A program made the translations under genes and the position numbers. Of a stretch of 40,119 nucleotides of DNA, positions 12,454-21,044 are shown piece by piece. The notes under the pieces were generated by a model, which was not told the DNA's origin, made no database searches, and saw only the letters and a program-made list of their open reading frames with translations. Position 1 is the first letter of the stretch. The number at the start of each line of letters is the position of its first letter. Source of the DNA: a virus; IMG/VR virus record IMGVR_UViG_3300044621_001857, positions 1-40,119 of that record; one strand, given 5' to 3'.

Positions 12454-13239
12454 ATGTCATCAACCTCAACCAATAAGCAGCCCTTGCTTGTTGATCGCCC
12501 TTTATATGACACCGTCCGAGTCACGACTCAAACGGTAGGTAGTGCTGCAACCAATACTTTGTTTGTGCAAGGTGGTCAGGCACCGTCTATCCTCGTAGAC
12601 ATGGACGCCGAATTAAGCGAAGATAGTAACAGTGGCGGTGTCGTTGATTCAATCACCATTACACGTAACGATTTCTACCGTTCTCCCGACTACACAGTAA
12701 ACGCAACTACCTCTGGTACTTCCATCTCACTTGTCAGTGGACAGATTGTTTTAATCACAGCAACTGGTTCCTTGACCGGTGGTGGCGCACCCTTCAGTGG
12801 CTATGGGTATTACACCTACACAGGTGCAGCTACCCTCACTGGAATCAACACTGCACTTAACTACTCTGGTGGCATTGCATCGGGCTTCACATACAACGGT
12901 GTTGCTTACGGTTATCAGCAAGCTGCAACCTTTGTGTTTTACCAGACGCGTGGCACCACGACTCCAATCCCTGGCTCTGGTGATTACAGACTTATTTTTG
13001 CAAAGACTCTTCCCGCAGGCAGCGGCACTGTCGATTGTTCTGACGTAATGCCTCAGCTTGCAGTACCAAATGTAAACGCTGGCAACACTACTGGCTTAGG
13101 CTCCACGGCTCCGCTGCGTAACAAGGGCATCTACCTGGAGCGTGGCGACCGTATTTACGTGGGTGTATTCCCCGATGGCCCTAATAGTTCTGGTTATATT
13201 CCCGGCGTGCATGTAATTGCACAGGGCGGTTTCTTCTAA
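12454..13239 (+). CDS. Beta-rich probable tail or head structural protein
   Basis: 261 residues, rich in Thr, Ser, Gly and Tyr with alternating strands (TVNATTSGTSISLVSGQIVL, GYGYYTYTGAATLTGI, GIYLERGDRIYVGVF). No catalytic motif and no transmembrane segment. Composition resembles phage virion proteins with jelly-roll or Ig-like folds. Three bases separate it from the next structural gene. Specific role unknown. Confidence 0.6.
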   Translation: MSSTSTNKQPLLVDRPLYDTVRVTTQTVGSAATNTLFVQGGQAPSILVDMDAELSEDSNSGGVVDSITITRNDFYRSPDYTVNATTSGTSISLVSGQIVLITATGSLTGGGAPFSGYGYYTYTGAATLTGINTALNYSGGIASGFTYNGVAYGYQQAATFVFYQTRGTTTPIPGSGDYRLIFAKTLPAGSGTVDCSDVMPQLAVPNVNAGNTTGLGSTAPLRNKGIYLERGDRIYVGVFPDGPNSSGYIPGVHVIAQGGFF

Positions 13240-19403: not shown

Positions 19404-19405
19404 TT

Positions 19406-19427
19406 GGGAGTAACTATAGTTGCTCCC
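19406..19427 (+). promoter_or_regulatory. RNA hairpin directly before the lysozyme start
   Basis: GGGAGTAAC (19406-19414), loop TATA, GTTGCTCCC (19419-19427) pair over nine positions with one G-U, and the stem ends exactly at the ATG (19428). The only Shine-Dalgarno-like GGGAG is inside the 5' arm. This layout matches translational control hairpins known before T4 gene e (lysozyme). Confidence 0.65.
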
Positions 19428-20087
19428 ATGTCAGATCTTTCTCGTGCGATTAACTTAATTCGCAAGTACGAGGGCTTTAACGAAAAAGCCTACCCAGATC
19501 CGATTACGGGCGCAGAACCTTACACAATTGGATACGGAACTCAATTCTACCCAGATGGATCTGCTGTTAGACGTGGGCAGTTCTGTACCATGGAAAAAGC
19601 ACTGGAATATCTATTCAATGAAGTCAGTATTATTGAAACGCAGTTAGATAAATTAAACCTTGGCCTTGACAGCGTGATGCGTCAGGCATTGATTTCGTTC
19701 ATTCATTCGATTGGCTGGGAGCCTTTCCTTTACAGTCACGTAATTGACTGTGTTGAAAACGAAGACTTCTGTGCAGCAATAGAAGAAATGGGCCAGTGGA
19801 TTTTTGATGCCGACCATCACGTCGTTGGTAACCTTCTGGACCGACGCAGGGAGGAAATTAATTTGTTCCTGGAAGATTTGGATGAACGCCCTTGGCCCTC
19901 TAGTGAAATCCTTCTTGGTGCCTTCAGGAATTATTCAGCTTCTCAGCATGAGATTAACGCGATTCAGAAGCTGGAAGAACGGATCAGTCCTTACATCCTT
20001 TCTGAATTTGCCAATGAGTTTTGCAGTGGCAACAACCAATGGCTAGACAATCCTGCAAAGGACTACGATTCGGTCTTTAGCAGCTAG
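19428..20087 (+). CDS. T4-type lysozyme (GH24 endolysin)
   Basis: 219 residues from ATG 19428; an in-frame TTG at 19404 would place the hairpin inside the gene and is less likely. The glycoside hydrolase 24 core is clear: IRKYEGFNEKAYPDP with catalytic Glu15 and Asp24, then YTIGYGTQF with Thr38, then SFIHSIGWEPFLYS. It cleaves the glycan backbone of peptidoglycan. The last ~60 residues beyond the usual core (RPWPSSEILLGAFRNYSAS onward) are helical and may bind the wall or a partner. No signal peptide or SAR segment, so it needs a holin or other release. Confidence 0.9.
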   Translation: MSDLSRAINLIRKYEGFNEKAYPDPITGAEPYTIGYGTQFYPDGSAVRRGQFCTMEKALEYLFNEVSIIETQLDKLNLGLDSVMRQALISFIHSIGWEPFLYSHVIDCVENEDFCAAIEEMGQWIFDADHHVVGNLLDRRREEINLFLEDLDERPWPSSEILLGAFRNYSASQHEINAIQKLEERISPYILSEFANEFCSGNNQWLDNPAKDYDSVFSS

Positions 20088-20098
20088 GCTTAGAATAA

Positions 20099-20413
20099 AT
20101 GAAAGAAAGCATGAACAGCCGAATGGAGCGTTCAGTTGAACCACGGGAATTTGAACTTCCCTTAGAGCTTCAGTTCTCCATGCGCAAAGCTGAGCTTGCG
20201 GCTCAAGAGATGACCTGGGACGACCTGTATGCAGCTCTCCTAAACCTCTACCATCAACGCCTGATGGAGTGGTATGCGGTCAAAGAGATCATGGCGGCTG
20301 AAAATATTGAGATTGACTTCGACATTCCCACTGACCTGGAGCTAGCAGAACTCGCCGCCGCATGTATATACGACGACGAGGACGAGGATGAAGACAATCT
20401 TCAGCCGTTCTGA
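20099..20413 (+). CDS. nblA: NblA-like phycobilisome degradation adaptor with acidic tail
   Basis: NblA dimers bind phycobiliproteins and recruit the host ClpC/ClpP protease to dismantle the light-harvesting antenna. Residues 17-65 carry the family pattern: FELPLELQFSMRKAELAA, EMTWDDLYAALLNLYHQRLM, with the conserved Leu-Glu-x-Gln-Phe and Leu-Tyr-x-Gln spacing. Host NblA is about 55-65 residues; this one has a 40-residue acidic C-terminal extension ending in DDEDEDEDN. Several Met codons near the start (20099, 20111, 20123) leave the N-terminus uncertain. Viral nblA is known from Microcystis and Planktothrix phages and marine cyanophages. Next to lysozyme, it implies late action on host light harvesting. 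Family call is from pattern reading, not a search. Confidence 0.75.
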   Translation: MKESMNSRMERSVEPREFELPLELQFSMRKAELAAQEMTWDDLYAALLNLYHQRLMEWYAVKEIMAAENIEIDFDIPTDLELAELAAACIYDDEDEDEDNLQPF

Positions 20414-20619
20414 GTTTCGTTGACAGTAATTAGGCGGTCCAAGTACCACTGTGCTTTCTTAAGGTCTTGCACACCGCCTTTGTTACGCCAACGCCACGTG
20501 TACTTGACGCAATTCCCACGTAGGTAGCCCTGAAACTCCTCTGCGGTTAGCTGCGCTTCAATCGCATCGATGCATTCGATGGCGCCTGTTTCAGAATAAT
20601 GAGGCGGATGGTTAACCAT
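20401..20619 (-). CDS. DUF3310 family protein
   Basis: 72 residues from ATG 20619, preceded by AGGAAG. The whole protein is the DUF3310 domain: VNHPPHYSETGAIECIDAIE, then FQGYLRGNCVKYTWRWRNKGG and DLKKAQWYLDRLI. These small phage proteins are often labelled nucleotide kinase-like, but the reaction is unproven. The frame stays open upstream to an ATG at 20898; that longer form would add a Gly/Ser-rich stretch and overlap the next gene by 196 bases, so I prefer the short form, although residues just upstream (VCPVPWATKEEPPVLQED) look protein-like. Its 3' end overlaps the NblA-like gene by 13 bases, tail to tail. Confidence 0.8.
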   Translation of the reverse strand: MVNHPPHYSETGAIECIDAIEAQLTAEEFQGYLRGNCVKYTWRWRNKGGVQDLKKAQWYLDRLITVNETQNG

Positions 20620-20702
20620 GTCTTCCTGGAGCACAGGAGGCTCTTCTTTGGTGGCCCAGGGAACTGGGCAAACACCATCCTTGCACTCAGTCGACTCGCT
20701 AA

Positions 20703-21044
20703 TTATCGGCGCAAACCACGGCGCTTCAGAGATTCTTCCATCATCTCCTCGTTGGGTTCCCCCAGGGCCAGCACTAACGCCTTGGGTTTCGGTGATGCTC
20801 CCATCTCCAGACCCTGCTCCATTGTTGGAATATATCCCGTTGCTCCAGGCCGTCCCCCCTCGATTGCCAAGTTTGTCCGTTCCCTTCCGTCCTGACATAA
20901 GGTCAACCCTCTGTTGTACTGATCCATTAATGGTACATCAGCTTTTTCGTTGGCGAGAGGTGCGCCAAAATCATCTTCATCAAGACAACGACACTGCAGT
21001 TCGTCTTGAACAAAGCTATCTAAAAAACCAGCGGCTCCATGCAT
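20703..21044 (-). CDS. Unknown acidic protein upstream of DUF3310
   Basis: 113 residues starting at ATG 21044. Reads as a normal protein: CRCLDEDDFGAPLANEKADV, YNRGLTLCQDGRERTNLA, GLEMGASPKPKALVLALGEP and a helical C-terminus EEMMEESLKRRGLRR. No recognised family. A competing frame (the extended DUF3310) covers its second half. I favour this frame because it has ordinary amino-acid use and a start before the DUF gene. It would be co-transcribed with DUF3310. Confidence 0.55.
   Translation of the reverse strand: MHGAAGFLDSFVQDELQCRCLDEDDFGAPLANEKADVPLMDQYNRGLTLCQDGRERTNLAIEGGRPGATGYIPTMEQGLEMGASPKPKALVLALGEPNEEMMEESLKRRGLRR

Follow-up and report, generated by a model that had tools for sequence, protein, structure and literature searches.

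The gene directly downstream of the lysozyme gene in the stretch of viral DNA analyzed here (40,119 bases, referred to as the window) is best explained, with a probability of roughly 55%, as a phage-borne adaptor for ClpC proteolysis, which derives from NblA, belongs to the lineage of Synechococcus phage S-EIV1 and carries a new C-terminal targeting module. NblA proteins of phages are already known (PMC4103541, PMC9602691), and what is new here is an NblA-like family of the S-EIV1 lineage in which the C-terminus has been replaced.

The features of the gene and its surroundings are given in Table 1. The window also encodes a terminase, a virion structural protein, a dCTP deaminase, a tail fiber and a primase, and its gene arrangement resembles that of S-EIV1. 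The open reading frame at 20099-20413 on the plus strand is uninterrupted and spans 104 codons for amino acids, and the sequence-only reading of this DNA had placed the start at its first codon. However, the ATG at 20123 is kept across the family, with GTG used in a few divergent members, whereas the upstream in-frame ATGs at 20099 and 20111 are not conserved among the relatives, and the position of the TAGAAT box makes it likely that transcription begins no further upstream than 20099. Therefore, the true start is probably the ATG at 20123, which gives a protein of 96 residues.

Table 1. Positions of the NblA-like gene, its parts and its neighbors in the window.
Feature	Position	Strand	Evidence or remark
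NblA-like protein gene	20123..20413	+	Probable extent, 96 aa, MERSVEPREF...LQPF; start kept family-wide
In-frame stretch upstream, containing the start of the sequence-only reading	20099..20122	+	Probably untranslated leader; relatives in most clades have no ATG here
NblA-like helical hairpin	20153..20293	+	Matches to PF04485 and 1ojh; AlphaFold2 pLDDT 84-93
Family-specific module (residues 61-86): IEIDF loop and DIPT-capped third helix, in place of KxxWGL	20303..20380	+	
Acidic tail, disordered, ending in Pro-Phe (YDDEDEDEDNLQPF), SSB-tip-like	20369..20410	+	pLDDT <50 at residues 88-96
TTAGAAT box (TAGAAT at 20091-20096), −10-like	20090..20096	+	About 26 nt before ATG 20123
Lysozyme/endolysin gene, directly upstream of the NblA-like gene	19404..20087	+	PF00959, E 8.6e-16; PHROG 7 endolysin
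DUF3310 gene, convergent	20401..20898	−	Shares 13 bases at its 3' end with the NblA-like gene; PF11753, E 4.6e-20

An unannotated small NblA-like protein is carried by a large group of picocyanobacterial viruses. Scans of viral contigs with several queries yielded at least 588 confirmed relatives, and the family is thus present in at least 588 viral contigs as well as in the isolate S-EIV1. The S-EIV1 orthologue, AHV82245.1, is recorded as a hypothetical protein with no NblA annotation; it shares 65% identity over 78% with the window protein, likewise sits after the lysozyme gene and has an acidic tail ending in PF, although this tail is longer (DDDDDDIDDLRKELAPF). PHROGs contained no family matching the window protein, and its matches to DUF4030, HRD1 and PHF12 were disregarded because they look composition-driven. 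Table 2 of PMC5332604 gives no nblA for the S-EIV1 group, and no published assignment of nblA to this group was found in the literature covered, the scope of which excluded Nadel et al. 2019. A close relative of the gene is also carried by a record of 125,842 bases (IMGVR_UViG_3300042503_000838, G002); related complete-looking genomes are about 80-85 kb long, and the greater length of this record may reflect a larger relative or a duplication in the assembly.

On sequence comparison, residues 11-57 of the 96-residue protein (19-65 of the 104-residue version) are a remote but statistically supported homologue of NblA. In the PF04485 profile search that the sequence-only reading had proposed, the window protein alone gave E 0.0029 and 18.5-19.5 bits, which is below the gathering score of 25. 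The family-wide support is stronger, as PF04485 was matched without gaps by all 18 of the aligned family members, with a best E of 6.1e-6, and one relative (G027), taken with its frame context, reached 25.2 bits against the gathering score of 25. When the family profile was compared with PDB sequences, NblA (1ojh) was on top with E 6.5e-4, and the hhalign comparison of the family with three bona fide NblAs gave a probability of 82.5 and E 9.8e-6 over 48 ungapped columns with 33% identity. A fragment of Anabaena NblA scored 23.4 bits against the family profile, where 30,000 shuffled sequences reached at most 17.0, and the NblAs of phages Ma-LMM01 and PaV-LD were not separated from shuffled sequences by this profile. 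Therefore, the family is related to NblA, and it is not recognizably closer to the phage NblAs described before than to host NblA.

The AlphaFold2 model contains helices at residues 14-28 and 32-59, arranged as helix-loop-helix with pLDDT 84-93, and a third helix at 69-86. The predicted hairpin of a short and a long helix is the same as in cyanobacterial NblA (PF04485; Anabaena PCC 7120, 1ojh). The Foldseek search with this model returned no matching solved structure from the PDB, a short hairpin being hard to score. The best-kept part of the core is the N-terminal stretch, ELPLELQFSMR, which aligns without gaps to ELSLEQQFSIR of Anabaena NblA; in NblA, ClpC binding is assigned to this part (PMC4103541).

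The protein differs in length from host NblA, which has about 60 residues compared with 96 here; the 39 extra residues hold the third helix, an acidic run and a tip ending in Phe. Small proteins of the NblA family also occur in the cyanophages Ma-LMM01, MaMV-DC and PaV-LD, and those of Ma-LMM01 and PaV-LD are tailless and reach 45-52 bits with PF04485. The NblA-like genes of marine cyanopodoviruses and cyanomyoviruses attributed to Nadel 2019 are reportedly distant homologues recognized by profile methods, and the present family may overlap with them. With the settings used, PF04485 and the family profile found nothing in P-SSP7, Syn5, P60, S-RIP1, P-GSP1, P-SSP2, S-CBP2, S-TIM5 or S-SCSM1, in a search of cyanopodoviruses and cyanomyoviruses that included some reported nblA carriers; its family-profile part was run without a positive control. 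The distant NblA homologue of the marine cyanophage S-SCSM1 was likewise described through profile methods (PMC9602691).

NblA binds ClpC via a motif near its N-terminus and phycobiliproteins via a motif near its C-terminus (PMC4103541). The C-terminal motif, KxxWGL, is present in the NblAs of Anabaena and Ma-LMM01 and absent from that of PaV-LD, and it was found in 0 of 137 distinct proteins of the present family. In its place stands the module listed in Table 1, in which P69, T70 and E73 (96-residue numbering) are invariant in 49 diverse rows. Because this tested hallmark of NblA is missing, we call the protein NblA-like rather than NblA; the identification as a phage NblA in the sequence-only reading holds for the core, on the strength of the profile, profile-profile and shuffle comparisons, and does not extend to the phycobiliprotein-binding end.

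The 39 residues that follow the NblA-like region end in DDEDEDEDNLQPF. The observation that the core is followed by an acidic tail absent from host NblA is borne out, since the tail is missing from 1ojh (65 aa) and from the NblAs of Ma-LMM01 and PaV-LD. The extension is also not a chance feature, as a C-terminal acidic run occurs in every full-length relative examined; it is not peculiar to the phage of the window but is the norm in the S-EIV1 lineage. To describe it as an acidic extension is correct for this run and leaves out the conserved helix and the Pro-Phe end. It is plausible that the extension changes protease recruitment or the choice of target, and this idea can be sharpened, because what has been replaced corresponds to the substrate-binding C-terminus of NblA, and what has been kept is the N-terminal stretch to which ClpC binding is assigned there.

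The exact Pro-Phe C-terminus is found in 95 of the 137 distinct proteins, including that of the window, and these belong to the freshwater clade and that of S-EIV1. The Pro-Phe pair is unchanged in 104 distinct coding sequences, although seven different codon pairs encode it and each of the three stop codons is seen after it; the neighboring tail positions take five to nine different residues. The overlap with the DUF3310 gene was considered as the cause of the conserved PF and was ruled out, as the third positions of the codons and the stop codon itself change freely. Therefore, it is the protein that is constrained, rather than the overlapping gene. The 14 residues before PF consist on average of 61% Asp/Glu, with Q and L as the usual residues at positions −3 and −4. 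In other clades the protein continues beyond the Phe, with the ends DPFTPA, DPFEPV, ENCFL and HPFFV, and the marine low-GC clade does not end in PF. On the tree of the core, the tail types require only four changes. In one divergent clade (L214, L316-L319, L321, L324 and L326), the proteins end in HPFFV, QPIFG or PSIFA, or in GIPYPF in the case of L214; the acidic run and an aromatic tip are retained there despite the different last residues.

These features bear on the alternative that the protein is a plain phage NblA which degrades phycobilisomes like host NblA and whose tail is a feature for solubility or stability with no partner. The supported homology of the core, the bleaching of cells on expression of other cyanophage NblAs (PMC9602691, PMC4103541) and the Synechococcus host of S-EIV1 all agree with it. 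However, the motif for binding phycobiliproteins is missing in 137 of 137 proteins, and a passive tail needs neither the strong selection on the two residues of the tip nor the invariant P69, T70 and E73, which makes this alternative unlikely. As the phycobiliprotein-binding residues of NblA are not kept, the degradation of the antenna cannot be assumed, and the targets to which ClpC is brought may go beyond the light antenna or be different from it.

The form of the tip suggests one such set of targets. The tip of E. coli SSB (MDFDDDIPF) is likewise a disordered acidic tail with terminal Pro-Phe and a free carboxyl, and the acidic tails of the T7 gp2.5 type are comparable in being disordered and acidic. 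The T7 gp2.5-type tail has a terminal Phe. SSB-interacting proteins bind the terminal Phe of the SSB C-terminus (SSB-Ct) with its alpha-carboxyl, together with the upstream acidic residues (PMC10238739). The SSB that these phages themselves encode has PF as its last two residues in S-EIV1, as it does in 16 of 17 related records. Moreover, in two near-complete relatives of 84-85 kb (132 called genes in G001 and 134 in G009), PF ends are confined to two proteins, the SSB and the NblA-like one. The exception is the SSB of G027 (L260, G027:C1:50037-50663), which seemed to end in CFQLF like the CFL tail of its clade and so to point to covariation of tip and SSB; this was dropped, because comparison with a 97% identical relative (L278) indicates a frameshift at the 3' end of the gene, with DDNEHF as the in-frame end.

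In the alternative built on this resemblance, the hairpin would recruit ClpC, and the tail would dock on SSB-interacting proteins in competition with SSB, so that these are degraded or held. The candidate partners are host PriA, RecO and the RecJ/ExoI class, or the replisome of the phage itself. The mode of action of SSB-Ct, the terminal Phe with its preceding Pro and Asp/Glu run, and the restriction of PF ends to the SSB and the NblA-like protein in the two relatives are in its favor. However, compared with DDDIPF of E. coli SSB, the acidic residues are set back from PF, with L-Q in the place of D-I; the NblA-like protein has no OB fold, and the terminal Phe is not kept in some clades of the family. 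Covariation between the tip and the SSB was not found, as PF remains the end of the SSB in those clades whose NblA-like protein continues beyond the Phe. Since the resemblance is good but inexact and is accompanied by no covariation, mimicry of the SSB tip is held as a rival, to which we give about one chance in four.

The sequence-only reading had expected late expression from the position beside the lysozyme gene, which is weak evidence when taken alone. Better support comes from the box upstream of the gene. The heptamer (C/T)TAGAAT lies about 20-35 nt before the start in nearly all relatives examined, a few divergent members having a TAAAAT-type variant instead. The window contains five copies, all on the plus strand, and four of them stand just before plus-strand open reading frames (at 1941, 12392, 20090-20096 and 26309); besides the NblA-like gene, the box precedes the frame after the terminase, the frame 12454-13239 and the tail fiber. 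In the near-complete relatives, the heptamer is rare, lies directly before genes and marks a handful of late-strand genes. In G001 (84 kb), four of the five heptamers lie no more than 50 nt before a gene that is read from the same strand as the NblA-like gene, where 0.16 would be expected at random; apart from the one at the NblA-like gene, these precede genes of 97, 261 and 529 aa. The heptamer is thus a candidate promoter of this phage lineage, and the NblA-like gene probably has a late-type promoter of its own, with the transcript starting at or after 20099. The expectation of late expression is supported by a conserved box common to structural and tail genes on the same strand. Late-class expression would be unlike that of the nblA of Ma-LMM01, which is an early gene (PMC4103541).

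A late-type promoter box and a lysozyme neighbor would also fit a structural or lysis role, and, with the sub-threshold PF04485 score of the window protein and the lack of a structural match, they could point to a small helical protein of the phage, such as a factor in replication or virion assembly, whose two-helix hairpin resembles that of NblA by convergence; however, this is improbable, as the ungapped PF04485 matches extend to 18 of 18 members, NblA is also the top PDB match, and a real Anabaena NblA exceeds 30,000 shuffled sequences by 6 bits.

The hosts of these phages affect which cargo is likely for the proposed NblA-derived adaptor. The host of S-EIV1 is a Synechococcus, which we take to bear phycobilisomes. 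Small hli-type genes were found in phages of the window's clade, the S-EIV1 clade and the marine clade (G001, G002, G004, G016-G018, G023 and G031-G034); their presence in three clades supports cyanobacterial hosts. One clade of the NblA-like family has 29-35% G+C and could infect Prochlorococcus; with regard to the host of this clade, alternative oxidase was not found in a search run without a positive control, the tRNAs were uninformative, and hli is present. To our knowledge, Prochlorococcus has no phycobilisomes, and if it is the host of this clade, a cargo other than phycobiliproteins would be needed. A copy of the NblA-like gene also occurs on an S-EIV1-like phage contig (PAZU01000015.1, L149) that is binned in the MAG Euryarchaeota archaeon SP67; this bin also has three hli-like matches and so probably contains stray contigs of cyanophages or cyanobacteria, the one with the copy being probably a stray phage contig.

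For the adaptor that we favor, a course of action can be proposed. Going by the biology of NblA, the N-terminal part would dock on host ClpC, so that ClpCP is still recruited, and the new C-terminal module would set the substrate. Most likely, the phycobilisome would be attacked via the hairpin, and the acidic Pro-Phe tail would serve as a second docking site. The cargo would then be the host proteins selected by the hairpin and the tail together, among which phycobiliproteins are the likeliest in hosts that bear phycobilisomes; in the freshwater clades, SSB-interacting proteins could accept the tail in the pocket where they bind the SSB tip. Breakdown of the antenna would supply the phage with amino acids, and late control over replication or repair proteins is a possible further gain.

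The boldest form of these ideas, in which a ClpC adaptor with a copy of the SSB docking tip takes ClpCP to SSB-interacting proteins of replication and repair, or competes for them, is quite improbable. If it is true, the phage has converted an adaptor for phycobilisome degradation into a means of disarming the host's network of DNA repair and replication, or of taking it over. The reading preferred here would place an NblA-type proteolysis adaptor in a widespread cyanophage lineage, where it is now annotated as hypothetical, with its substrate-choosing part replaced and its presumed protease-binding part retained. The conserved Pro-Phe tip bears on the question of whether phages have put the SSB tip to use as a docking tag for proteins other than SSB.
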